Of a stretch of 40,283 nucleotides of DNA, positions 14,306 to 31,442 are shown piece by piece (position 1 is the first letter of the stretch; every line of letters begins with the position of its first letter). The translations under genes and the position numbers were made by a program. The stretch is from Candidatus Tiamatella sp. GTDB taxonomy: Archaea; Thermoproteota; Thermoprotei_A; Sulfolobales; Acidilobaceae. The stretch lies in assembly GCA_015522645.1 (NCBI GenBank), contig WALV01000019.1:1-40283 (forward strand), read 5' to 3'. The notes under the pieces are model-generated. The model saw nothing but the letters and a program-made list of their open reading frames with translations, did no database searches and had not been told where the DNA came from.

Positions 14306-14384
14306 CTTCCCATACATCTTCACTACCATCATTTTAATATTCCCCCAATTCACCATTAGCCACACAGAAACAGAGGTGTATCTC

Positions 14385-16457
14385 GTGAAAAAAACCTCGT
14401 TGCTATCACTCCTCGTCGTTACACTAACAATAATATTTGCACTACAAGCATACACCCTCACGTCGGCAACAGCAACTAATAGTATACCACTAGGATGGGA
14501 GCATCCAAGCCCCTTCAGAGACCTGCTCACAGCATATACCGCTCACGTAAAGCCGGGCGGGCGAATAGAGGCTCACTTGGCGGGAAACTATAATATTATA
14601 AGCGGTTACATATTCACAGTAGTACAGAATAAGACCAACTTGATACCAGTGAATAAAACCGTTAGCATACAAGTCGAAAACAACACTGTATTCATACACG
14701 TTCCAAGTGACACCCCTACAGGAGTATACGACCTATTCATAAAAACAAGCACCGGGCTATATAGGATACCCCAGTCTATATGGGTCTCAAAGGATTGCTC
14801 ACTGCCCATAAGAATAGCTCATTTCACAGACGAGCATTTCGACCTACACCCAGACTACTATACGTCTGCAGCTATCCTAACTAAGCTGTTAGGCGTACAA
14901 CTAGTTATAGGCACTGGTGACGCAACTGACACGGCATCCGAGCTCCAGGCAAAACATTACGTGATGCATAGAAGCTCCTTCCTATACGGTCTCCCTCTAG
15001 TTGAGACCCCGGGTAACCATGACTATGAGTCTGATAACACTGGAACCCCCTATTTCAAGAAATACATTGCCCCAGAGTATTGGTATAAGAACTATTGTAA
15101 TAAAATACTCATTATAGGCCTCACAACAGGTAAGGAAAGGGACGTTATCACACAACAGGAACTATACTTTACAAAGAATGTTTTAGCGAACAATACGAAC
15201 GTGCCTGTGAAAATAATAGGCTACCACCACCCGTTCTTCTGGCATCACGGTAATGTCACGTCAACATATAATGACCCGAAGCTCGTAAACTATCTAAGCA
15301 CAGGATTCTGGTATGGTAAAAACGCTAATATATCACTACAATTCCTCAAGCTCATAGAGGAATACAGAGTAGAACTCACTCTGCAAGGGCACGTTCACAG
15401 TGATAGCATGGTAAACTTCACCAGTACAATGACTGGTTACAAGACTTGGTTTGTTACGACTACAACAATCGGCGGCCCCCACGCACCCGAAATATATAAC
15501 GGGTTCCAAGTAATGGATGTATACCCGAATGACACTGTGAAATTCCCATTTGCTCCCCCGACATTCAACGTTCCAGTAACTCATAGCGTTAACAGAGGAG
15601 TATACCCCAAGCTCTCAATACCTGTACAAGATAACTACCCAGAGCATTTCTACGCCAAATATTATTCCTATGGTCCAACTTTCGCTTTAGAAATGGAGAA
15701 CACTTTAGGTTACCTTAATCCGTCGGGGTCTCTGTTAATAAGAGTTCCATGGACGCAGAATAGAATGCCTGAATTCTTCCTAACAAGATACTCAAACACG
15801 GGCTCGATAAAAGTATTGAATGCCACGATACCTGGTGACAGTTACCTCTACTTGCTATTATCAGTAAACTTACCGACAGGCTCTCACTTAATACTGGTGG
15901 GAACAACCCAGGGTCCCGACAATACACCACCGACAGCGTCAATAAAGATGGTAATACCTAGAACACCGCAGGTCGGATCCACCCTAACCATGTATATTCA
16001 AGCAACTGATACTGGGTGGGGAATAAAGTCCGTATCAGCCATGATGGATGGTAAGCAGTTAGGTGTAACCCAGAGCGGGAAATACTATCTATTATCGACG
16101 AAGCTGAAACACGACAACACAAGCATACTTCTCACAGTAGAAGACCTTGCAGGACACAAATCCCTTTACACAATTAATATAGCCAACGGGAAGATAATGT
16201 TATCACCCTACCAACCGCAAAACACGACGACTACAGCCGCAACACAAACCAGTCAAACCCAAACCACAACTATAACAAGTAAAACAACAAGTTCACCAAC
16301 ATCTTCACCGACCCAGACAACAAGCAGTGAAACTAGCCAGACTAGCACGACCCAGAGTAAAACTGTTGTGAGCAAGGGAAGCTCCTATACTATTCTATGG
16401 GTTTCAATAATTGTTGCAATAATCATTATTGCAGCAGCCCTACTACTTAAACGTTAA
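14385..16457 (+). CDS. secreted, membrane-anchored metallophosphoesterase
   Basis: A 690-residue cell-surface calcineurin-like phosphoesterase. It has an N-terminal signal peptide (KKTSLLSLLVV...), an N-terminal beta domain, then the full dinuclear metal site: TDEHFD (D149, H151), GTGDATD (D179), GNHDYE (N211, H212), GYHHPFF and GHVHSDS. An Ig-like domain follows (PPTASIKM onward), then a Thr/Ser-rich linker rich in TTT and TSS, likely O-glycosylated, and a C-terminal membrane helix ending in KR. It would hydrolyse phosphate mono- or diesters outside the cell. GTG 14385 is supported by GAGGTG (14373-14378) six bases upstream. It follows the ABC genes by 79 bases, with its own TATA-like ATTTTAATATT (14332-14342). 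The link with the importer is an inference. Confidence 0.88.
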   Translation: MKKTSLLSLLVVTLTIIFALQAYTLTSATATNSIPLGWEHPSPFRDLLTAYTAHVKPGGRIEAHLAGNYNIISGYIFTVVQNKTNLIPVNKTVSIQVENNTVFIHVPSDTPTGVYDLFIKTSTGLYRIPQSIWVSKDCSLPIRIAHFTDEHFDLHPDYYTSAAILTKLLGVQLVIGTGDATDTASELQAKHYVMHRSSFLYGLPLVETPGNHDYESDNTGTPYFKKYIAPEYWYKNYCNKILIIGLTTGKERDVITQQELYFTKNVLANNTNVPVKIIGYHHPFFWHHGNVTSTYNDPKLVNYLSTGFWYGKNANISLQFLKLIEEYRVELTLQGHVHSDSMVNFTSTMTGYKTWFVTTTTIGGPHAPEIYNGFQVMDVYPNDTVKFPFAPPTFNVPVTHSVNRGVYPKLSIPVQDNYPEHFYAKYYSYGPTFALEMENTLGYLNPSGSLLIRVPWTQNRMPEFFLTRYSNTGSIKVLNATIPGDSYLYLLLSVNLPTGSHLILVGTTQGPDNTPPTASIKMVIPRTPQVGSTLTMYIQATDTGWGIKSVSAMMDGKQLGVTQSGKYYLLSTKLKHDNTSILLTVEDLAGHKSLYTINIANGKIMLSPYQPQNTTTTAATQTSQTQTTTITSKTTSSPTSSPTQTTSSETSQTSTTQSKTVVSKGSSYTILWVSIIVAIIIIAAALLLKR

Positions 16458-18930: not shown

Positions 18931-21900
18931 TTAAGGCCTTACCTTCATTAGTACTGCTGCAGCTATAATTAGGGTTATTATAATTAGCACCGCATTGACT
19001 ATTGCATAAGTCTTTAATGAGGCTGAACCTGACTTTATTCCTTCAACTGTCGTTGATATACTGTCAACCTTACTGGATATAGCGTCCTCCTTCTGGTTCG
19101 CCTTCTGTGCAGCGTTAGCCGCTGACTGTGCTGCTGTTCCAGCATTCTGTGCTGCATTAATTGCTGAGTCAACTTTCTGGCCTAGAGTCTGTAACTTACT
19201 ATCCACATTTGATTGCAGTGAAGTTACTTCATTCTTTATGTTGTTTATGTTACTGTTCATGTCATTCAGTTTATTGTTAACATTGCTTGCAGCGGTATTC
19301 ACAGCATTAATTACTTGTTTATTAGAGTTCTCCACTGTACTGTTCACACTAGATATTGCACTGCTGAGCTCGTAAGCTGAATTCTCGACGTTATTATTCA
19401 CCTTGTTTATACCGCCAAGTATCTGGGCAGCATAGCTATCCATCGCACTACTGAGACCACTAGCAGCATTATTCACAGCACCAGTCACCTGGCCTGCGGC
19501 TGTATTAACTGCGCTAAGAATCTGGCTAGCAGCATTATTCACAGCACCAGTCACACTCTCATTAACAGCAGTTATACCGCCAAGTATCTGGGCAGCATAG
19601 CTATCCATCGCACTACTGAGACCACTAGCTGAAGCCTTAACGGTGTCATTCACGCTACCAACAGCCATTAATATACTCGAAGCCTCGTCGTTAACAGCGC
19701 CAAGTATCTGGGCAGCATAGCTATCCATCGCACTACTGAGACCACTAGCAGCATTATTCACAGCACCAGTCACCTGGCTGGCTGCATCATACACAGCACC
19801 AGTCACACTCTCATTAACAGAGGAGAGCTGGGTGCTGAGGTTGCTCGCCTCGTCTTTTACTGTATTGTTGACACTAGTGATCTTATTGTTTAGAGCTGTG
19901 TCTACACTTACTACTGTATGGTCCGTCGAATACACGTCGTATAATCCATAGATGTTAGCTTTAGCGAGTGCGTCTATTACTAGTCCATCAGTTGCTGGCT
20001 GGTGTGTTATTGTGTACGTTATCACTATTTCGCCCGTCTCCTTATTTACGTACACTACTGGCGGACTGGACAGGCTGGTTACTGAAACATTGTCAACGTC
20101 TCCTGATCCGTATATGAACCACACTGTTAACCCTTCTAGAGTTACATCGTTATTGTTTAGAGCGGAGTATTGCTGGTTATCAAGCACATACACTAATTTG
20201 ATAGCGACAAATATCGTGTCCCCGACAAACGCGTTATCATCTGCTTTCACTGAGATCTTGAAGAGAGGCTTTGCACCTAATGATAATGTGAACTCTACTG
20301 TACAGGGCTCTGAGAATATCTTCAGTTTATACACACCGCTCTGGCGTCCAGTCAGTTGTAATAGTTCAGTCGTATTTAGAGTCACATTAAACGAGCCGTT
20401 CGCGTCTGTTATTACATCTACTAGTGGTGAAGCAAGAGATGGTACTAGGCTTGTTATGTTGCCATTAGTATTATTAATTAGTCCATATCCTATGAATACT
20501 ATAACGTCTCCTGGTTTAGAGCTTATTACAGCACCGCCTGTAAGTTTCTCATATGCCGCTGAAGCACCGGTCTTATAGCCTATTATACAGTTTATTGTTA
20601 TATTATTATATGACTGTTTCTCAATAGTATATGTTGGATTACCATTGGTTTCGTTGACAAGGATTCCTAGATCATTATGATACGTTTCTGGTACCTCGTA
20701 TGTTAACTCTTTATATCCCTGAGTTAGGTCTGTTGCATTGAACTGGTCTAGAGTTATATTGATGCTTGTGGAGGTCATGTTAACCGTTAAAGTTGCATTT
20801 TCCCACATTGGGAATCCTATTATCTCAACTACTACATGTGTCTCATTATCCGTGACACCATTTATGACATGCGCTGGATACGGGTAAACTGTCAGGTTAT
20901 GCCGCGTGGATGTTATCTGCAGACTAGTTGTTGTATCAGCGTGGAATCTCGCATAGCTGCTATCGTCTGGCCAGATAAACACTTTTGCTGTGTCTTTATC
21001 GTTCACTACTTTGCTAGCATTAGTCAATGATAATCCCACATTGTCACCTGTACCTAGTAACCCGAACTTGAACTCGTTGGACAATAATGTCTCATTTATG
21101 TCTGTTGGTAGCTTAATAACTAAGGCGATCTTGCCTAAGGTATCATTCTTGACTAGATACGCGTCTATATGGCCGTCACCGTTCGTGTCTAGGCCTACCT
21201 TATTATCAACGCTTATTATATGGCTGAGTGCCATAGTAAGGTTGCTCAAGTCATATGTTATAACAGGCTTTAGGTTCTCTGTTGTAATAAATCCGTATCC
21301 CTTGATCAGTATATAGTCTCCAGGTGCTAATTTCTCACCGTCTATACCATGCCAGCTACCATTATATTCTAAGTATGACGCGTTGACATATGGGTATATT
21401 TTGAGTCCCTGTGCAGCGTCCACCCATGTTCTAACCATTGTTCCAGTATCGTTTACCTTGATTATTGGGTAGAATGTTTCGCCTCCATACCAGTGATCGG
21501 GTATTGTGACTATGCCAGTTATAATTCCAACCGAATTTACAGTTGGACCGCCCGTATAGCTAGTGTTCCACGTCTCAAACGCTGTTCCATTCCAGTAGGC
21601 TAGGCATATAGCGTTCAACGCAGCACTACTAGGTAAGTTGTGGCCTGTTACCTCGAACTTGTCGCCAGGGTTCATTTGTGCTCCTAGTATATGGTCCGAG
21701 CCGCCTACAACCGTAGGATCAGGGTTAGACAGTTCGATCGATGGGTATACGGTTATATTATCAGGGACGGCCGGGTTCCATATTATGTTGTACACCACGT
21801 ATGCTTCATCAGATGTTTCATTGAACACATAGTTCATGGAATAGCTCCCGAAATCCCCCGAGGTTCCATTATATGTGTAGTATCCTAGTGTTCCTGTTTC

Positions 21901-23022
21901 ACCGTCAGCTCCAATTGTTCCCTGGGAGAACACTGTCGATGAATCCGTTAGAGTTATATTCAAGTACGTGCTTTCTGTTATGTTTATAGTAACAACGCTA
22001 TTAGAACTATCAAATGAGCTGTTGTAATGCTCATCCGCTAATGGTGAGATCTTAACATCGTAATATTCTCTGAACTCGCTTACTGGGAACATCCCTTCAT
22101 TACCGGTTGGTGTGACAGGGAAGTCATAGAGGTAACCTGTTGTGAGGTTCAGTTGTGAAGTCTCGTTTATGAACGCGTTACTGTCAGCAGAGAGAATCGT
22201 GATATTAGATGGAATATTGAATACATCGGATGCTGCATTGATTATCTCCGAATCCCCGCTGGTCGTGTTAGTCGCATTGATGTCAAACAATTTATATGTC
22301 TCGTATCCATTAGTCATTGTTACGTTATAGTCTATCCATTTGGCTTCTCCGTTAGTCATGTTGATAGGTGTCCCGTCAGGGTGTAATAGTTGTATTACGA
22401 TATTGGTGGTATTCGCTGTTTCAGGTCCTCCGTACCAGGTAGCGTTAAAGCCTGTGTATGATAGTTGCTTGTTTGTTATCTGGTATTTACCTATGATTGT
22501 TGTGTTTGATACTGTGAATGAACCGTCCATGACGGCTACGGTGTTCTGGTCTATCTGTATTTTCAGGTAAACCGGGGTGCTACCGTCAGTATAGTCCTGC
22601 CCTGTCGCTTGGTTTACTTTTGCCCACCAAGCATTACTGCTTGGCAGTTCTGCGGAGACTATTAGGTAGTTCTCGCTTGCACCAGCAGTATCTAGTTTGA
22701 GGTGCTCGTTGTATGGTGGTGTTATGCCGTTGTATTCACCGTTGCTTATCAGGGGGACGCTTGTAGATGTTATCTGGGCGAAGGGGTCTGTATCCATGAA
22801 TATGTTAACTGCTATTGCCTGCGGGTAACTTTGCCTCAGTTTTTGAACGTTTATTACGAAAAATATCTTCCCTCCTATGCTTGTCTTCTGCGTAAGTACG
22901 AATGCTTGTGTGTTTATCTCTGTTCTGGACGTTGTTGCGGCTTCCGTGTGGTATGCTCCTGCAGCCATGCTTAGAGCTATGAGAAGCACAGCTGCGAGCA
23001 CTATTTGTTTTTTCCACTGCAT
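18931..23022 (-). CDS. S-layer / tetrabrachion-like surface protein with hendecad stalk
   Basis: A 1363-residue secreted surface protein. It has an N-terminal signal peptide, then about 1000 residues rich in beta strands, Thr, Ser, Asn and Tyr with dozens of N-x-S/T sequons, almost no Cys, and low Lys/Arg. From about residue 1044 to 1330 follows an Ala/Ser/Asn/Val-rich stalk that breaks into 11-residue units (for example SGLSSAMDSYA, AQILGAVNDEA, ESVTGAVNNAA, SQILSAVNTAA), then a C-terminal membrane helix ending in MKVRP. This matches the plan of Staphylothermus tetrabrachion: an outer canopy on a right-handed coiled-coil stalk. The start ATG 23022 has a GGTGAG site eight bases upstream and AT-rich TATA elements. 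It is probably the main or one of the main envelope proteins. Confidence 0.88.
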   Translation of the reverse strand: MQWKKQIVLAAVLLIALSMAAGAYHTEAATTSRTEINTQAFVLTQKTSIGGKIFFVINVQKLRQSYPQAIAVNIFMDTDPFAQITSTSVPLISNGEYNGITPPYNEHLKLDTAGASENYLIVSAELPSSNAWWAKVNQATGQDYTDGSTPVYLKIQIDQNTVAVMDGSFTVSNTTIIGKYQITNKQLSYTGFNATWYGGPETANTTNIVIQLLHPDGTPINMTNGEAKWIDYNVTMTNGYETYKLFDINATNTTSGDSEIINAASDVFNIPSNITILSADSNAFINETSQLNLTTGYLYDFPVTPTGNEGMFPVSEFREYYDVKISPLADEHYNSSFDSSNSVVTINITESTYLNITLTDSSTVFSQGTIGADGETGTLGYYTYNGTSGDFGSYSMNYVFNETSDEAYVVYNIIWNPAVPDNITVYPSIELSNPDPTVVGGSDHILGAQMNPGDKFEVTGHNLPSSAALNAICLAYWNGTAFETWNTSYTGGPTVNSVGIITGIVTIPDHWYGGETFYPIIKVNDTGTMVRTWVDAAQGLKIYPYVNASYLEYNGSWHGIDGEKLAPGDYILIKGYGFITTENLKPVITYDLSNLTMALSHIISVDNKVGLDTNGDGHIDAYLVKNDTLGKIALVIKLPTDINETLLSNEFKFGLLGTGDNVGLSLTNASKVVNDKDTAKVFIWPDDSSYARFHADTTTSLQITSTRHNLTVYPYPAHVINGVTDNETHVVVEIIGFPMWENATLTVNMTSTSINITLDQFNATDLTQGYKELTYEVPETYHNDLGILVNETNGNPTYTIEKQSYNNITINCIIGYKTGASAAYEKLTGGAVISSKPGDVIVFIGYGLINNTNGNITSLVPSLASPLVDVITDANGSFNVTLNTTELLQLTGRQSGVYKLKIFSEPCTVEFTLSLGAKPLFKISVKADDNAFVGDTIFVAIKLVYVLDNQQYSALNNNDVTLEGLTVWFIYGSGDVDNVSVTSLSSPPVVYVNKETGEIVITYTITHQPATDGLVIDALAKANIYGLYDVYSTDHTVVSVDTALNNKITSVNNTVKDEASNLSTQLSSVNESVTGAVYDAASQVTGAVNNAASGLSSAMDSYAAQILGAVNDEASSILMAVGSVNDTVKASASGLSSAMDSYAAQILGGITAVNESVTGAVNNAASQILSAVNTAAGQVTGAVNNAASGLSSAMDSYAAQILGGINKVNNNVENSAYELSSAISSVNSTVENSNKQVINAVNTAASNVNNKLNDMNSNINNIKNEVTSLQSNVDSKLQTLGQKVDSAINAAQNAGTAAQSAANAAQKANQKEDAISSKVDSISTTVEGIKSGSASLKTYAIVNAVLIIITLIIAAAVLMKVRP
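19414..19493 (-). repeat. stalk repeat, copy 1 (80 bp)
   Basis: Identical over 80 bases to copy 3 (19699-19778), and over 58 bases (from 19407) to copy 2. It encodes the SGLSSAMDSYA-AQILG units of the stalk. Confidence 0.9.
19572..19629 (-). repeat. stalk repeat, copy 2 (58 bp)
   Basis: Matches 19407-19464 over 58 bases. It lies 165 bases from copy 1, exactly five 33-base (11-codon) units. Confidence 0.9.
19699..19778 (-). repeat. stalk repeat, copy 3 (80 bp)
   Basis: Identical to copy 1 over 80 bases. It lies 120 bases from copy 2, which equals three 11-codon units plus seven codons. Shorter partial copies of a neighbouring unit are at about 19526-19554 and 19792-19819. Confidence 0.9.
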
Positions 23023-23143: not shown

Positions 23144-23269
23144 GTGATTAGAAAACGATTTAATTTCCTGGAAGACAATATGCTATTTAGTGATTATAGA
23201 ATGTGAGAGTTATTGCTTAACAGCCCGTTAGTTAGGCGTGAGCAGACGGGGTTTATGAGGGCGATTCGG

Positions 23270-24043
23270 ATGGTAGTGACTGTCGAGATTACTGGGATGC
23301 TTGAGGAGATCCTGGAAGCACTTGTAGCTGCCGGGCTTTATAATAATAAGAGTGAGGTTGTTAGAGATGCTATAAGGCGCCTAGGAGAAAATATGGATTT
23401 GACAGGTATTGCGTTTAAAGTTTACGTGAACAATAAGGAAGTAACGTTTACTAGAATACTTAATGTTTCAGGACTAGCTTTTAAAGAAACCATCATCCAT
23501 TTTATAAGGCACGGTTACGCTCCGGAGCTAGGTGCCTTATCCGAGGATGAGGTAACTGTAATACCTGCTTTCAAGGGAGAATCAGTCATTGATTATTCTA
23601 CGCTGGAGGTGTATTTGGAAACAGGGTTCATTGAACATCTACCTAAACTCTCGGGTACGATAAAATTCGTTTTACCTAAGTCCCTAGAGGATCGCATTAG
23701 GCAGCTTCCACTGAGATATGGTATGACGTATAAGAGGCTCTTAAAGCTCCCCGGTTTCCATATAGTCAAGGAAACAGTATCCACTTCAGAGAAGGGCTGG
23801 CTTTCGGAGAGTGAGGCGGAGGCGTTAAAGATCGCGGCTAATAGGGATATACCGGTGGTGTCTTGTGATATCAGGTTTAGGAAGGCTTTGAGGCTCAAAG
23901 GGATACAAGCGATCCCTGGTTTATCTCTCGCTTACATGAGCGTAAAGAGAAACCTCGTTCCCCCCGGTTTCTGGCCTATATTTATAGCTAGAGCAACTTC
24001 GATACCTATATATGTGCCTCCAGCGGTGGAAAGGATTGTATAA
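23270..24043 (+). CDS. ribbon-helix-helix / PIN-domain fusion protein
   Basis: About 257 residues. The N-terminus (VVTVEITGMLEEILEALV...NNKSEVVRDAIRRL) is a ribbon-helix-helix of the kind found in VapB-type antitoxins. The C-terminal half looks like a PIN nuclease: VIDYSTLEVYLETGFIEHLPKL (D108), SESEAEALKIA (E180-E184) and PVVSCDIRFRKAL (D200) supply the expected acidic cluster. About 60 residues between the two are not recognised. It is one polypeptide where a toxin-antitoxin pair would be two. ATG 23270 has GAGGG eight bases upstream; ATG 23255 and TTG 23213 are in-frame alternatives. The VWA gene overlaps its end by 8 bases. Confidence 0.7.
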   Translation: MVVTVEITGMLEEILEALVAAGLYNNKSEVVRDAIRRLGENMDLTGIAFKVYVNNKEVTFTRILNVSGLAFKETIIHFIRHGYAPELGALSEDEVTVIPAFKGESVIDYSTLEVYLETGFIEHLPKLSGTIKFVLPKSLEDRIRQLPLRYGMTYKRLLKLPGFHIVKETVSTSEKGWLSESEAEALKIAANRDIPVVSCDIRFRKALRLKGIQAIPGLSLAYMSVKRNLVPPGFWPIFIARATSIPIYVPPAVERIV

Positions 24044-24590
24044 TGTTGGGGAAATTATTGTTATAATCGTTGATGAAAGCTTGAGTATGATGAAAACCGA
24101 TTTTAAGCCTAGGAGAATTGATGTTCTACGCGAGTCATTGAAACCTTTTGTTAGAAGCCTCCTTGAAAGAGAGATCCACACACTCGTAGGGCTAGTGGGT
24201 TTCTACAAGATAGCATATCCTATAACGTACCCTGTGGACAACACGGAACCCCTAATGGAAGCCTTGGATACTATAAGAATAAAAGGCGAAGCCTCCGCGT
24301 CAGGCGACGCGGTGAATCTTGCTTCACTAATACTCTTCTCAACCTCCCCTCCCGGATACAATAAGAGGATGATTTTAATCACGGATGACACTTCCAATGC
24401 AGGTATACCATTGTCCCTAATGTCAACACCTCTAAAGACCAGTGGTATCAAGGTTGACGTAGTCGGTCTAGGCAGGCTCGCAAGGAACGCTAGGGAGGAT
24501 CTCGAAGCTCTTGCTTCGTCATCAAACGGTGTGTTCATTAAAGTGGACAGGAAAGAGGATCTCCTTCCTTCACTTTACAAACTCCTTTAA
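24036..24590 (+). CDS. small VWA-domain protein
   Basis: A 184-residue protein consisting of one von Willebrand A domain with an intact MIDAS metal site: DESLS (first loop), a middle segment GEASASGDAV and ILITDDTSNAG. No signal peptide or membrane helix, so it is intracellular and probably a protein-protein scaffold. The TTG start at 24036 is supported by GGTGGA (24025-24030) five bases upstream. It overlaps the RHH-PIN gene by 8 bases, so the two are coupled. VWA proteins commonly partner AAA ATPases such as MoxR, and a MoxR gene lies 15 kb away, but nothing ties the two together directly. Confidence 0.8.
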   Translation: MYNVGEIIVIIVDESLSMMKTDFKPRRIDVLRESLKPFVRSLLEREIHTLVGLVGFYKIAYPITYPVDNTEPLMEALDTIRIKGEASASGDAVNLASLILFSTSPPGYNKRMILITDDTSNAGIPLSLMSTPLKTSGIKVDVVGLGRLARNAREDLEALASSSNGVFIKVDRKEDLLPSLYKLL

Positions 24591-24640: not shown

Positions 24641-24681
24641 TTATAAAATCTCTCCTCAACCTATGATGCTAGGTGCCTTTG

Positions 24682-26706
24682 ATGGGGAAGGGAAACTATT
24701 GGCCTGTGAAAAACAGGGTCTACTGGTGCCCTCGCAGCAATGTGCCTCTGATGGGGAAATACTGTGGGAACAGGGATCCTGCCCCGCAGCTTAAACTCAC
24801 AGACCCTGGAGACGCGAGGCCTGGTTTCCAGCATGACAGGGAAACCATTAGGAAAGCCTATAGAAACGAGTTTGGTTCACTGAAGGGAATAGACAAGCTG
24901 CTTGGCCATGGAGTCATCCTTCTCAACAAGGTTCCATATATGGATGAAATGAAGGAAGTAGTTTCTCAGGGAACGGTTGTTGCTAGAGTGTACTACGAGC
25001 CATTTGAAGGTAAATGGAGGCTGAGACTAAGCCGTCCGGGTATACTTAGAATAATGGATACTGGCATATTCGGCTTGTTTAAAGTTGAGGGCGGGTTGAA
25101 GGTACTGAGGCATAGGAGGAAGCTGAAAGCTGTAAGGGAGAATTATATGGAAGGCGAGCAGGTTGTTTTAGTAGACGGTCATGGGGAGCCGGTGGGTATA
25201 GGTTATTATGCTAATGGGGAAATATCTGTTCACAATGTTTTCTACACGTATTATCCATCAAGGTTCGCTGAAGACGAGGATTCCACGTGGGATGACGCTG
25301 TCAGGGAAAACGAGGAATACCTTGCTGAGTTGGAGGAGAGGGCTATTAGGTTCATAAGGGCTATGTATGAAAATAGGGGAGGGCCTGTAATAGTCTCATT
25401 CTCCAGTGGAAAAGACAGCCTGGTTGCACTGCATTTGACTTTAAAAGCCGGGCTGGAACCTGTTATACTATTCAATAATACAGGAATCGAGCTACCTGAG
25501 ACGGTAGAGCATGTATATAAAATAGCGGATATGTGGGGGTTAAAGGTTATTGAATCCTCTGCAGGCGATGCTTTCTGGAGATCTGTAGAGAGAGTAGGCC
25601 CTCCGGGGAAGGATTATAGATGGTGCTGCAAGATAACCAAGTTGGCACCATTGGCCCAGACTGTAAGTAAGCATTTCCCTAATGGCGGATTGAATATTGT
25701 TGGGCAGAGAGCTTATGAGAGCCTTGATAGAGCGAGAAGCGGGAGAGTATGGAGGAACAAGTGGCTACCTGGACTTTTAAACATAAGCCCGATACAGTAC
25801 TGGGGGCAACTAGCTATATACCTTTACATTTTCAAATACAACCTGCCCCTCAACCCATTATACTTCAAAGGATTCGACAGGCTAGGCTGCTTTATGTGCC
25901 CTGCAGCCACAGTAGCCGAGTACCAGCAAGTAAAGGAGACACACCCGGAGCTATGGAGTAAGTGGACCTCTGTCCTATATAAATGGGCTAAACGAATAGG
26001 GCTTGATGGAAAGGATGCGGATCTATGGGTGGAAAAGGGTGTCTGGAGGTGGCTGACGCCTGCAAGTCAGAAGAAGAGGCTGGAGAAGCGTTTAGGGATA
26101 TATATGCCTGATTGGAGAGAGTACTATACTAAGTGGTTGAAACCGTTCTCCATTATCGAAGATAGAGAAGAGGGAGTCGTGATACGGTTTGACGGATATA
26201 TAGATCCTGAGTTCTTCGAGGACCAGTACAGTGTTGTAGGCCCGTTCACCCGCGGTAATGGCTATAGGTATAGTTTAAAGAACACCTGTATAAGCGTTGC
26301 TATTGATGGTAATCGCGTGCATATATATGGTTTGAAGGGGAGAGCCGGTAGGGAGTTCGCATATGACGTGGTTAAACTCTACTATCGCTGGAAGAATTGC
26401 GGTGAATGCAAGTTATGTGAAACAAGCTGTCCTACAGGAGCCATAAAGATAATAGATGGGAGGCCTATAGTAGATACAGTTGCTTGTATACACTGTAAAC
26501 TATGCATTGATAATTGCCCGGTTTCTGACGTTACTGTTGAGAAGGTAGTTATACCTGTAAATGAGGATGAGGTCACCGCCTGGAGGAGGAAATGGAAGCG
26601 TAGCCGGGAGAGTGTTATCAAGCGTTATTATAAATTAAAGAAGGAAGTAGAGGGCTCAGAGGTTGAAGAAGAGGGGGAAGAGGAGGGGTTCTTCCTCGGC
26701 GGCTAG
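24682..26706 (+). CDS. PAPS-reductase-like PP-loop protein with 2[4Fe-4S] ferredoxin domain
   Basis: About 674 residues. A short N-terminal segment with WCPRS and KYCG and an approximately 120-residue PUA-like region precede a PP-loop nucleotide-binding domain, SFSSGKDS at 239-246. It also has WCCK (C315, C316) and CFMCP (C403, C406), the CC...CxxC spacing of assimilatory APS reductases that holds a [4Fe-4S] cluster. The C-terminus has two CxxCxxCxxxC motifs (C573-C583, C602-C612), a bacterial-type ferredoxin. An acidic tail follows. The catalytic ECGLH tail of true reductases is absent. It may use AMP-activated chemistry with sulfur, perhaps in RNA modification, but that is a guess. AGGTG (24671-24675) six bases before ATG 24682 fixes the start against GTG 24673. 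It overlaps the helicase gene by 4 bases. Confidence 0.85.
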   Translation: MGKGNYWPVKNRVYWCPRSNVPLMGKYCGNRDPAPQLKLTDPGDARPGFQHDRETIRKAYRNEFGSLKGIDKLLGHGVILLNKVPYMDEMKEVVSQGTVVARVYYEPFEGKWRLRLSRPGILRIMDTGIFGLFKVEGGLKVLRHRRKLKAVRENYMEGEQVVLVDGHGEPVGIGYYANGEISVHNVFYTYYPSRFAEDEDSTWDDAVRENEEYLAELEERAIRFIRAMYENRGGPVIVSFSSGKDSLVALHLTLKAGLEPVILFNNTGIELPETVEHVYKIADMWGLKVIESSAGDAFWRSVERVGPPGKDYRWCCKITKLAPLAQTVSKHFPNGGLNIVGQRAYESLDRARSGRVWRNKWLPGLLNISPIQYWGQLAIYLYIFKYNLPLNPLYFKGFDRLGCFMCPAATVAEYQQVKETHPELWSKWTSVLYKWAKRIGLDGKDADLWVEKGVWRWLTPASQKKRLEKRLGIYMPDWREYYTKWLKPFSIIEDREEGVVIRFDGYIDPEFFEDQYSVVGPFTRGNGYRYSLKNTCISVAIDGNRVHIYGLKGRAGREFAYDVVKLYYRWKNCGECKLCETSCPTGAIKIIDGRPIVDTVACIHCKLCIDNCPVSDVTVEKVVIPVNEDEVTAWRRKWKRSRESVIKRYYKLKKEVEGSEVEEEGEEEGFFLGG

Positions 26707-29579
26707 GTTTTCCAGTATCTCCTGTTTTCAACATACTTCCTCTCCTCTTCCACAATTGCTCTATAGAACTCCCGTTCACCATAATCAACTAGTTTAGATA
26801 CAACCCGTGGAAGTACAGTTGGACCTATACCTCTGGCCATTAATGCCTCAATAACGTATCTACCTAACCCCTCGGCCGAATATGATAATAATAGGCCTGC
26901 AACCTTCTGGAGGTCTTTCAGTCTTCTCCTCTCTTCCCTAGTAAGCTTCTTTTTATCAAGGTACTTTCTAACTATTCGCCCCGCTTCTTCATCTCCTCTC
27001 CAGGTAACTGTGATAAGCCTGCTGCCACACCTGGGGCACTTGATGTATTCTGAGGAACTTATATCCCGTGGCTTAGCCTTCCACGAATACCCGCAGCTCA
27101 AACATATGAGTCTGGCTTCACTGTTCTCGAGTCTTCTTCGAGCAGCTTCTATCATTATACTCTTCAATAATGCCTGTCTACCTGAGGCAGTTTCAGGCTT
27201 CCTCATATACGGGTTTTCTAGAACTTGCCTCGCCAGAAACGTAGGGTTACCCTGTTGGTTGTCGATAACGGTGATTTCATCGGCCTTGAGGTTTTCCAGG
27301 AAATCAATAACAGTTTTCATATCATTGTTTTCAACAAGCATTTCGTTAATTACCTCTCTCTCGAGGACACTGCCCTTGTATATTTGCGTTAGTTTGCGTA
27401 GTGTCTCTGATGTCAGCCGTGCATCTTGGTTTATTACCCCCATCCTCTTCGCTATCCATGATAGCCTGATTCTGTAAGCGTAAGTGTTCCTCACATGGTC
27501 TATGAAGAGGCCCATTAGCTCTGGGAAATCCATGTTTGATAACTCTCTAAGTGCATTTACTATCATTTTCGCAAGAACCTTTGCTGACATGTTGGATGTG
27601 AATAGTATTGCATAAGGTATTCTACTGTATTCTACATGCTCAATTCTAGATATTATACTTGAGATTAAAAGGCCTAACGTATAATTGCCTTTGCTTCCGA
27701 GGCAGGTATAAAGGAGGACTCCACCGTCTATTACTTCAAGTGTAGGCCTGTAATAGCCTAAATTGAAGAGACCATTAGAGTTATTATGCAATTCCCTTAT
27801 AAGTGAATACAGTTTATCCCGAGCGTTCTCTGATAGGAAATCTCCATACCTATTATCAATTAATTTTAAACCATACTCCTTGTCGTAGAGGATGAGTTGA
27901 AGTACACCGCAAACCTCCCTAGAGACCTTATAATCGACTGGTATGAGCTCTCCCTCCCATGAAGGTATTCTAGCCTCGGATACCCCGTGCAGCATCACGT
28001 ATATCCTGCCCTTCTCAGTGTCGATGTCTAGAACGCGCCAGATTTTCCCTGCTAGAACAAAGTAAGGTGTTTCACGGCTAATGTTGGAAACGACGAAGCG
28101 CTCCGATACCTTTCCGATCACTGCTCTTGATGAAATATCTATTACAATGTAGTCGGGTTCGCTTGGGATCATTGAAACATTATAGAAGTAGCTTCTAGTT
28201 CTCCTACCCCAGTCAAGCTCTTTCTCCCTCTTCCTAATAATTCTGAGGTCATTCATAAAGTTGGCAATTTCCTCTATTTCATCTAAGTTAAGGCTCCTAT
28301 AGAATGGTAGCTGAGTGACATAGTAGTATACTTCATCTATCCCAACAGGCCTAGAATCTAGTATGAACCCGGCAATACCGTGAGCCAGCACGTCTAATGG
28401 CTTATCGTAGATGGGGAGATCTTCTAGGTCACCCTTCCTTGTTCTCCGTGCAATAACGATTGATTCCAGTATTTCATAGATGTTTGGTATTGTTATGATG
28501 TACCCTGTGCTCGTGTACCCCAATAAATGACCAGATCTGCCTATTCTCTGGGATAGATTGGTAGCCCTCCTAGGGGATGTAACTTGTACTACCCTGTCTA
28601 CTGAGCCTATGTCTATTCCTAGTTCCATGCTTGACGTTGAAACCAGTACCTTTATTTTCCCTTCCTTGAATTCCTTCTCAATTCTCTCCCTTATACCTCT
28701 GTGTAGGCTTCCATGATGGACTCCTGTATTGAATTCGTTTTCTCTATTCAATTCTACCCCAAGTCTTTCCGCTACCTGTCGTGTGTTAACGAACACTAGC
28801 GTACTCCCTTCTTTCGAGGCTACCTCTGAAATAATCGAAGACAAATCAGGCCAGAAATTATTCTTTGAACCCGCAATCTCTACTTTTATACTATAATTCT
28901 TAAATGAGGAATCTATAGCCAATAGGGGGTATCCTCCTAAGGCTTCGCTAACTCTTCTAACACTTTTACCTGATAATGTCGCAGATAACGCTATTAGCTG
29001 AGGTTTTCTACTAATCAATCTCTCCAAGCGTTTTATGGTTAGAAAAAACTCTACACCACGCTTGCTACTAAGAAGCTCATGGATCTCGTCGATAATTATC
29101 CATCTCACATTTTTCAGATGCTTTCGGATCTTGTTAACAGTTATAAGTAGTCCGAAAGACTCAGGTGTCGAAACCATCATTGTGGGAGGCGTTTCCATGA
29201 ACTTCTTTCTTCCCTGCTGGCCGGTATCGCCGTGTCGAACCATAAGGGTATAACCATTAATTTCTATGAGTTGCTTCATTCTGGAATGTATATCCCTGTT
29301 CAGGGCTCTAAGGGGAGTAATATACACTATTTTTATACCCTCAGGATCTATCGCATGTTGGCGGAGCTTCGACAGAACAGGTATAAGAGCTGCTTCCGTT
29401 TTACCAGTCCCAGTCGGTGCCACAACTAATACACTCTTCCCAGAAAGAATAAGTGGAATAGCTTTCTCTTGAATAGGAGTAGGCTTAGCGTAACCCAGCT
29501 TACAGAGTATTCTGACTAATCCTTCGTCTAACCCTAAGTTACTCCACAGACATTTATTGTCTAGTGTAGTTCTAAACAT
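26703..29579 (-). CDS. Lhr-type superfamily 2 DNA/RNA helicase
   Basis: About 958 residues. Helicase core with Q motif PTPIQEKA, Walker A APTGTGKT (54-61), Walker B DEIH (164-167), motif III SATLSG, motif IV LVFVNTRQVAE and motif VI QRIGRSGH. A long Lhr-like region follows, then a C-terminal zinc ribbon (CLSCG...CPRCGS). Archaeal Lhr enzymes are 3'-5' translocases for DNA repair or RNA processing. The second ATG (29579) has a GAGGA site six bases upstream and is preferred over 29585. It is divergent from the HerA-like gene 90 bases away. Confidence 0.93.
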   Translation of the reverse strand: MFRTTLDNKCLWSNLGLDEGLVRILCKLGYAKPTPIQEKAIPLILSGKSVLVVAPTGTGKTEAALIPVLSKLRQHAIDPEGIKIVYITPLRALNRDIHSRMKQLIEINGYTLMVRHGDTGQQGRKKFMETPPTMMVSTPESFGLLITVNKIRKHLKNVRWIIIDEIHELLSSKRGVEFFLTIKRLERLISRKPQLIALSATLSGKSVRRVSEALGGYPLLAIDSSFKNYSIKVEIAGSKNNFWPDLSSIISEVASKEGSTLVFVNTRQVAERLGVELNRENEFNTGVHHGSLHRGIRERIEKEFKEGKIKVLVSTSSMELGIDIGSVDRVVQVTSPRRATNLSQRIGRSGHLLGYTSTGYIITIPNIYEILESIVIARRTRKGDLEDLPIYDKPLDVLAHGIAGFILDSRPVGIDEVYYYVTQLPFYRSLNLDEIEEIANFMNDLRIIRKREKELDWGRRTRSYFYNVSMIPSEPDYIVIDISSRAVIGKVSERFVVSNISRETPYFVLAGKIWRVLDIDTEKGRIYVMLHGVSEARIPSWEGELIPVDYKVSREVCGVLQLILYDKEYGLKLIDNRYGDFLSENARDKLYSLIRELHNNSNGLFNLGYYRPTLEVIDGGVLLYTCLGSKGNYTLGLLISSIISRIEHVEYSRIPYAILFTSNMSAKVLAKMIVNALRELSNMDFPELMGLFIDHVRNTYAYRIRLSWIAKRMGVINQDARLTSETLRKLTQIYKGSVLEREVINEMLVENNDMKTVIDFLENLKADEITVIDNQQGNPTFLARQVLENPYMRKPETASGRQALLKSIMIEAARRRLENSEARLICLSCGYSWKAKPRDISSSEYIKCPRCGSRLITVTWRGDEEAGRIVRKYLDKKKLTREERRRLKDLQKVAGLLLSYSAEGLGRYVIEALMARGIGPTVLPRVVSKLVDYGEREFYRAIVEEERKYVENRRYWKT

Positions 29580-29669
29580 ATCCATTCCTCATAGCCGCCA
29601 TTCATTTTTACCATAATCAAGCCTTTTATGATATGAGGATATATGACTTGGAGGGGTATCGAGGATTCG

Positions 29670-31442
29670 ATGAAACCTCTTAAAACAGTCTCGAGAAGGA
29701 TACTGGTATCCGTTGCACTCTTTTCACTATACATGGTTTTACTGTCAGTAGTCTTGAAGGATATCCGCCTTCCCTATAATTCGTTGAATACGGGTATGAT
29801 TATCTACCCTAGTATTAAACCGTTATTACTGCTTACGGCGGTACTTACGTTTGGACTAGGATTCTCATACCTAGCAACAGGGAGTGTACTTGAGTATGTT
29901 TCAATGCTATCAACAAGCATGTATATACTATGGCTGTTCCTTCCTGAAGCTGGTTTAGCTGGGTTTATTTTAATTATCTCCTTACCTCTAGCTATGACTC
30001 TTATTCCAGTCATTCTTTACATGGTCAAGAAGAATAGAATCACCGAGCCTTTTCTTCTAAAATCCTCTGTTTGCATAAAGATAGGTATGAAACCGATAAT
30101 ATTATTAGGTTTCATTTCCGGTTTAGGAGTAGGTTTTTCTATACAAGGCCTTCTCGGCTGGTTGACCATTTATAATGGATGGCTTTACTGGTTATTAGGC
30201 ACTCTTGCCTCAGCCTTACTAGGATCATGCTTCTTATACTACAACCCTGTTCTACTAGGCTTGTCTGCCTCCTTTTCTATTCTCTCACTCCCAGTGTCCG
30301 TGCTTCTTAGCCTAGTCTCACCATTAAAGATACTCCGGCAGGGAGAAGGCCCACGCGTCGGGGACGTGATTGGAGGGCTTTACTTCTGGAGTAAACTGGA
30401 TGCGCTAGAGTTCCCCTTCAACTATAGTGAAGGCATTGTTAGCTGGCACTGGGCTATGACGGCTGACAGCAAGCTATATCTAAGTTCAATGATAGGATTC
30501 CCCGGCAAACCTAATTTGAACTCGATTGTTATGGGAAGAAGTGGCTCTGGTAAATCGTTGCTAACAAAGCGATTAGTGTCGTCTTTCTCAGCAAAAGACT
30601 ACAGGGTTTTAGTACTAGATTTCCATGGGGAGTATGCCGATGTAATAGATGATGGTAGAGTGGTAGACTTCTGGAATTCCAATTATTACTTGGATTTCAA
30701 GTCGATAAAAGGAGACGGGGAATTTAAAGCGCAAATTATTACCGATGCATTTAGAAGCATATACAATTTAGGAGGCCGGCAATACACAATGCTCTATGAC
30801 GCCTTAACCGATTATTTTTCAACAGAAAACACTGAGAGCCTCTCTAAACTAGTTCCGAGGAGTCTACTTAGCCTGTCAGATGCATCCGGCTTTAGTGATA
30901 GACCCAGTGTTATCAGTCTAGCACAATATATTCGACAGTTAGGGTACTTATTTGAAGGAGAGTTACCTGTTAATGTCCTGCTTGAAGGAAAGGATAATGT
31001 AATCATTGATCTATCGAAGATACCTGGAATACATCTAAGATTAGCGACCGCTGAGCTAGTTTTGAGGATACTATACAATACGATGACAACAGCTTCAGCA
31101 TCTAGCCGCCGTCTCCTCGTAGTAGAGGAAGCCCACCACTTTAACAATAAGAGCATACTAAGTAAACTCTATACAGAATCGAGAAAGTTCGGGCTGACAA
31201 TTATCAGTGTGACCCAAAACCCGAAGGCGTTACCGGAGGATATTGTAATAAATTCCACTAATAAGCTAATGTTCGGTATGGACGAGCCTGAGAATCTGGA
31301 TTATATAACTAGAATTCTGACACCAATAGATAAAGAGCAGAACATTCTTCTCAAGGACACTATTTCGTCGCTCCCACCGGGATATACACTATTTAGCAAT
31401 AAACTCCTTGGCAAGGAAATTCTACTTATTAAGGTTTTTTAG
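29670..31442 (+). CDS. membrane-bound HerA/VirB4-like ATPase (CedB-like)
   Basis: About 590 residues. The first ~220 have six to eight hydrophobic segments, followed by a HerA/VirB4-type ATPase: Walker A GRSGSGKS (289-296), VLVLDFHGEYAD, IIDLSKIPG, and Walker B LLVVEEAHHF (482-491), then the Gln-rich ISVTQNPKALP. The HerA-specific DFHGEY is clear. Crenarchaeal CedB, the ATPase of the Ced DNA-import system, has this membrane-plus-HerA plan, so it is a candidate; other TraG-like or HerA paralogues remain possible. A TATA-like element at about 29625-29634 and GAGGAT before ATG 29670 favour that start over ATG 29643. No other Ced subunit is recognised nearby. Confidence 0.75.
   Translation: MKPLKTVSRRILVSVALFSLYMVLLSVVLKDIRLPYNSLNTGMIIYPSIKPLLLLTAVLTFGLGFSYLATGSVLEYVSMLSTSMYILWLFLPEAGLAGFILIISLPLAMTLIPVILYMVKKNRITEPFLLKSSVCIKIGMKPIILLGFISGLGVGFSIQGLLGWLTIYNGWLYWLLGTLASALLGSCFLYYNPVLLGLSASFSILSLPVSVLLSLVSPLKILRQGEGPRVGDVIGGLYFWSKLDALEFPFNYSEGIVSWHWAMTADSKLYLSSMIGFPGKPNLNSIVMGRSGSGKSLLTKRLVSSFSAKDYRVLVLDFHGEYADVIDDGRVVDFWNSNYYLDFKSIKGDGEFKAQIITDAFRSIYNLGGRQYTMLYDALTDYFSTENTESLSKLVPRSLLSLSDASGFSDRPSVISLAQYIRQLGYLFEGELPVNVLLEGKDNVIIDLSKIPGIHLRLATAELVLRILYNTMTTASASSRRLLVVEEAHHFNNKSILSKLYTESRKFGLTIISVTQNPKALPEDIVINSTNKLMFGMDEPENLDYITRILTPIDKEQNILLKDTISSLPPGYTLFSNKLLGKEILLIKVF

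Follow-up and report, generated by a model that had tools for sequence, protein, structure and literature searches.

The stalk gene and its surroundings

The window, that is, the whole stretch of 40,283 nucleotides analysed here, belongs to a genome of 71 contigs with a total length of 1.54 Mb. A preliminary description had singled out the minus-strand interval 18931-19900, which corresponds to residues 1042-1363 and the stop codon of a 1363-amino-acid open reading frame (ORF), and had attributed it to a new surface protein with a tetrabrachion-like stalk. The features of this protein and of the genes beside it, with the grounds in brackets, are as follows:

18931..23022 (-): predicted tetrabrachion-family surface-layer protein, 1363 aa (ORF, canopy homology and synteny)
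22939..23022 (-): putative signal peptide at the N-terminus, roughly residues 1-28 (its hydrophobicity is conserved among relatives)
19900..22938 (-): beta-rich canopy, residues 29-1041 (sequon count; AlphaFold mostly beta, low confidence)
19285..19899 (-): hendecad stalk segment, residues 1042-1246 (period 3.65 over residues 1045-1215, falling to about 3.6 lower down; helix in the model)
19627..19647 (-): seven-residue interruption DTVKASA, residues 1126-1132 (sequence; adjoins a break of the modelled helix at 1131-1134)
19405..19785 (-): in-frame stalk DNA repeats (three 96-nt copies, spaced by 165 and 120 nt)
19460..19591 (-): 66-nt tandem inside the stalk repeats
19033..19284 (-): heptad stalk segment of 12 heptads, residues 1247-1330, Ala-rich in its mid-part (periodicity)
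18949..19014 (-): predicted transmembrane (TM) helix, about residues 1337-1358, with a short basic tail after it (hydrophobic C-terminus; AlphaFold helix)
23213..24043 (+): RHH-type (ParD-like) gene, a conserved neighbour (profile match, synteny)
24012..24590 (+): VWA-domain gene, neighbour
24673..26706 (+): PAPS-reductase-like/ferredoxin gene, synteny anchor with the Staphylothermus marinus tetrabrachion locus
26703..29585 (-): Lhr-type DEAD helicase, synteny anchor

The canopy carries 39 N-X-S/T sequons, compared with 16.0 expected from shuffling (sd 3.4, maximum 27, n=500), and an AlphaFold model of the canopy, made with three sequences, is nearly all beta, at a mean pLDDT of 38, which is low confidence. 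The sequences used for structure prediction came from the window and related loci. Searches of the PDB with the ORF protein (phmmer) and with a canopy profile (hmmsearch) gave no useful match and no chain for the canopy. In a single-chain AlphaFold model, long helices span residues 1026-1130 and 1135-1329, and a separate helix is formed by residues 1337-1357. This model supports the helicity of the stalk and leaves its handedness unaddressed; the separate helix backs the C-terminal TM helix that had been claimed, which is conserved in relatives. Elsewhere in the window, the plus-strand gene at 14376-16457 encodes a calcineurin-like phosphoesterase that is secreted, has a Ser/Thr-rich linker, carries a TM helix at its C-terminus and is probably another surface protein, and the one at 29643-31442 (+) encodes a HerA/CedD-like ATPase with N-terminal membrane segments and a weak likeness to the DNA-translocating ATPase CedD.

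Hendecad and heptad parts of the stalk

Residues 1042-1336 are helical and contain neither proline nor cysteine, and the 299 stalk residues include 14 basic and 22 acidic ones. Fourier analysis of hydrophobicity over residues 1045-1215 gives a peak at a period of 3.65 (power 43.8), with a power of 40.5 at 11/3 and of 0.26 at 3.5; shuffled sequences have a mean of 1.0 at 11/3, and 0/1000 shuffles reached the observed value. The best hydrophobic period of residues 1216-1337 is 3.54, and 55-residue sliding windows fall from 3.62-3.69 in the upper stalk to 3.60 and then to 3.48 next to the membrane. The 11-residue units were said to have hydrophobic residues at positions 3, 6/7 and 10/11, and this is borne out by 15 hendecads taken in the same phase from residues 1049-1220: position 3 holds a large hydrophobic residue in 15/15 and position 7 in 14/15, position 10 is hydrophobic or Ala in 13/15, and few such residues occur at positions 1, 2, 5, 8 and 9. 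The seven-residue interruption was also located as described. The hendecads had, however, been extended over residues 1044-1330, which holds for about 1042-1246 and fails for 1247-1330, where an aliphatic residue or Ala occupies position 6 in all 12 heptads. A period of 7 rather than 11, which would speak against the preliminary reading, is found in the membrane-proximal third only, the upper part being hendecad. Because the period drops from about residue 1216 and heptads fill residues 1247-1330, the hendecad stretch is placed at about 1042-1246 and the rod is a hybrid.

Helices with a period above about 3.63 form right-handed or straight supercoils, and those with a lower period form left-handed ones. 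With a period of 3.65 in the upper and of about 3.5 in the lower stalk, the supercoil sense is therefore predicted to switch along the rod. Right-handedness and four-fold symmetry are suggested by the period and by homology, and the seven-residue break, together with the low charge, could make the rod flexible rather than rigid. CCfrag models of the tetrabrachion stalk agreed with an earlier annotation that assigned it more than one periodicity (PMC11676326), so a single stalk of mixed periodicity has, in principle, a precedent.

An 11-residue repeat could also belong to a lipid-binding, amphipathic stalk of the apolipoprotein type that forms no coiled coil, and in Pfam the stalk does match Apolipoprotein A1/A4/E best (PF01442, E 3e-8), with the window protein missing the cut-off at 33.9 bits versus 90. 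The known tetrabrachion also raises this model (score 25), so the model detects the period and not a function; in addition, the stalk is poorly charged, has its hydrophobic residues in a narrow stripe (positions 3, 7 and 10) and lies outside a TM anchor, all of which makes the lipid-binding reading highly improbable and favours a coiled-coil rod. Matches of the whole protein to Pfam and NCBIfam models were all below the cut-off and to unrelated helical proteins, which we read as shared periodicity.

Relationship to tetrabrachion and spread of the family

Tetrabrachion is the protein whose long rod bears the outer coat of the heat-loving S. marinus; it was reportedly described by Peters et al. 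in 1995 and 1996. Among the genomes compared (numbered G001 onwards), a tetrabrachion fragment is found with 98% identity inside a 1527-aa ORF of G094, which we take to be S. marinus F1. PF11401, the Pfam Tetrabrachion model of a stalk segment, matches neither the window stalk nor anything else in the window's genome, and likeness of the stalk alone does not prove homology. A first canopy profile, built from the window protein and the corresponding proteins of G001, G002 and G012, retrieved distant homologues of the same plan from G069, G044, G112, G006, G067 and G010. Its HMMER matches to G112 were composition-biased, and homology was therefore re-tested profile against profile with reversed and shuffled controls. 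By hhalign, the canopies of the window clade and the S. marinus clade match at E 1.2e-15 over 296 columns, the intermediates match the S. marinus clade at 3.7e-18 and the window clade matches the intermediates at 2.3e-51, whereas the best E-value of reversed or column-shuffled profiles is 0.11. The G112 protein, whose canopy falls within the family, has a stalk that matches PDB 1ybk at E 1.2e-7; 1ybk and 1fe6 are both solved structures of the coiled-coil stalk of S. marinus tetrabrachion.

The gene neighbourhood points the same way. The stalk gene and the PAPS-reductase-like gene are divergent in the window, G094 and G112, and a convergent Lhr-type helicase gene follows the latter; this matching order and orientation identifies the locus as that of tetrabrachion. 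In the window, G001 and G012, extra sequence beginning with the RHH-type gene lies between the stalk gene and the PAPS-reductase-like gene, and in G044 and G051 PIN/RHH-type, VWA-like and PAPS-reductase-like genes adjoin the stalk proteins. The RHH-type gene, PIN-like in some relatives, sits beside the stalk gene in the window, G001, G012, G069, G044, G006 and G051, and may regulate the coat gene. A dihydropteroate-synthase-like neighbour was discarded as a synteny anchor, with strong, near full-length matches in only the four nearest genomes; the PAPS-reductase-like gene is the better anchor. Canopy and neighbourhood together turn the tetrabrachion likeness that had been claimed into real homology, and by the same evidence the protein is not new in kind: judged by sequence comparison, it is a divergent member of the tetrabrachion family and its positional orthologue.

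The window protein shares with S. marinus tetrabrachion a signal peptide, a homologous beta canopy, a hendecad stalk, a C-terminal TM helix, the gene neighbourhood and a STABLE-like subtilisin in the genome. It differs in its shorter stalk (299 versus 460 residues), which PF11401 does not recognise, and in being heptad near the membrane, where tetrabrachion has periods of 3.61-3.71; the heptad-like windows of tetrabrachion lie near the arms. The tetrabrachion stalk of S. marinus carries the subtilisin STABLE (PMC5744192). Of 18 genomes tested, 16 have subtilisin homologues, which we infer to belong to the STABLE family; among the 16 are the genome of the window (C65:7455-11243, E 2e-203) and that of S. 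marinus, with an open frame of 1349. In G010, a 1336-aa STABLE-like subtilisin is encoded directly downstream of the tetrabrachion homologue (L023:4755-13024), and this gene pair ties the stalk protein and the protease together at the genomic level.

Within the order, PF11401 matches 3/214 genomes, and a canopy profile of 13 sequences matches 28/214 at E 0.001, some of them weakly; we regard strong, full-length canopy matches as family members and weak ones as leads. At the corresponding locus of G053, from the genus of G094 (L041, C1:1379000-1392500), the PAPS-reductase-like gene and the gene for a 458-aa protein, which in S. marinus lie on either side of tetrabrachion, have no tetrabrachion gene between them, and the G053 genome yields no match to PF11401 or to the canopy profile. 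At the same locus in G051 (L044:4946-9430), a 1494-aa protein that contains a long coiled coil as well as a TM helix matches the canopy weakly and is perhaps a distant family member. G006 and G067 have two family paralogues each, so not every member need be a main coat protein, and the window protein could instead be a surface fibre or adhesin; we think this quite unlikely, as the window's genome has a single, full-length family copy at the conserved locus.

It is also unlikely that the protein is the SlaB-like anchor of a two-component coat, with a separate SlaA-like protein forming the outer lattice. By published description, SlaB is laid out in the same order, from beta domains through a coiled coil to a C-terminal TM helix (PMC6911244, PMC10903991), and PMC5744192 cites a report that it distantly resembles tetrabrachion. 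Unlike the window protein, however, SlaB of Sulfolobales is much smaller, trimeric and a partner of SlaA, with three beta-sandwich domains in 475 residues (PMC10903991), compared with a beta part of about 1010 residues here, and the window protein has its strongest kin, in canopy and locus alike, in the single-component tetrabrachion.

Stalk replacement and the proposed coat

The closest relatives of the window protein are found in G001 and G002, sister species of the same genus, and in G012, a member of the same family (WAOQ01000005.1, MAG S143_140_esom). All three encode an orthologous canopy at the same locus, with a C-terminal TM helix, and canopy identity to the window protein is 56%, 50% and 34%, respectively; in the canopy tree the window groups with G001 and G002 (100/100), and G012 lies outside (100/100). 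The stalk, by comparison, has 299 residues in the window protein, about 506 in G012 and 144-145 in G001 and G002, and it is hendecad in the well-formed parts of G012 and an Ala-rich heptad (period 3.51-3.52) in G001 and G002. Rod length and repeat type have been swapped among these closest relatives while the canopy was kept. The heptad segment of the window protein aligns with the G001 and G002 stalks at scores of 81 and 94 (shuffled maxima 71 and 84), its upper stalk scores 89 and 88 against the same stalks, below the shuffled maxima of 103 and 105, and the upper stalk scores 184 against G012 (shuffled maximum 115), which, since shuffling destroys periodicity, partly reflects a shared period. 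The simplest history suggested by these sequences is that the line of G001 and G002 lost the hendecad part and expanded the heptad units; the window line may instead have gained it. Across 19 canopies, the stalk class changes at least 7 times on the tree, where classes were set by the global period, several stalks are mixed and a simple rule placed the stalk boundaries in distant members.

The stalk DNA indicates how such changes may arise. In the window, the repeat spacings of 165 and 120 nt correspond to five hendecads and to three hendecads plus seven residues, and the 66-nt tandem to two hendecads; the repeats of G012 measure 33 and 165 nt, and those of G001 measure 42 nt, or two heptads (4.3 copies, 92%). 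With in-frame DNA repeats of hendecad or heptad size, duplication is thus the likely route by which stalks grow and shrink, and the repeat structure suggests that the odd 120-nt spacing may be the origin of the seven-residue interruption.

We consider it very probable that the protein is a tetrabrachion-family S-layer protein, in which a TM-anchored, parallel coiled-coil rod of hendecads and heptads lifts a glycosylated canopy and the stalk changes fast; domain order, periodicity and tetrabrachion homology support the membrane-rooted, hendecad-bearing stalk under a beta-rich canopy that had been proposed. In this model, the host would be a Desulfurococcales-type archaeon and the protein its lattice-forming surface-layer protein, secreted and held in the membrane by the C-terminal TM helix. 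At 0.1485 nm per residue, the rod formed by several parallel chains would be about 44 nm long; it would hold the N-glycosylated beta canopy away from the membrane and thereby set the width of the space below the coat. The upper, hendecad two thirds of the rod are predicted to be nearly straight to right-handed and the lower, heptad third left-handed, and in-frame duplication of repeat units would allow quick change in rod length and repeat type under a conserved canopy. By the same measure, the 460-residue S. marinus stalk (period 3.66) would be about 68 nm long, in line with the 70 nm reported for tetrabrachion (PMC5744192). The stalks of G001 and G012 would measure about 22 and 75 nm.

In the open-access literature we found no report of a family that spans the order, or of sister species in which hendecads and heptads have replaced one another. 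New hendecad families are said to have been described by Martinez-Goikoetxea and Lupas in 2023. By the Pfam model, tetrabrachion is a near-orphan, whereas the canopy profile and the locus reveal a wider family with many natural stalk variants. We see an even chance that the handedness of the stalk is evolutionarily free, switching along the rod and being replaced between sister species that share a canopy (about 44 versus 22 nm). If so, the stalk would be an exchangeable spacer, with DNA repeat turnover setting its length in 33- or 42-nt steps. The swaps of hendecads and heptads under a conserved canopy provide a natural experiment on how far an archaeal coat depends on the superhelix sense and the length of its stalk, and they supply new coiled coils of known length that are probably heat-stable.
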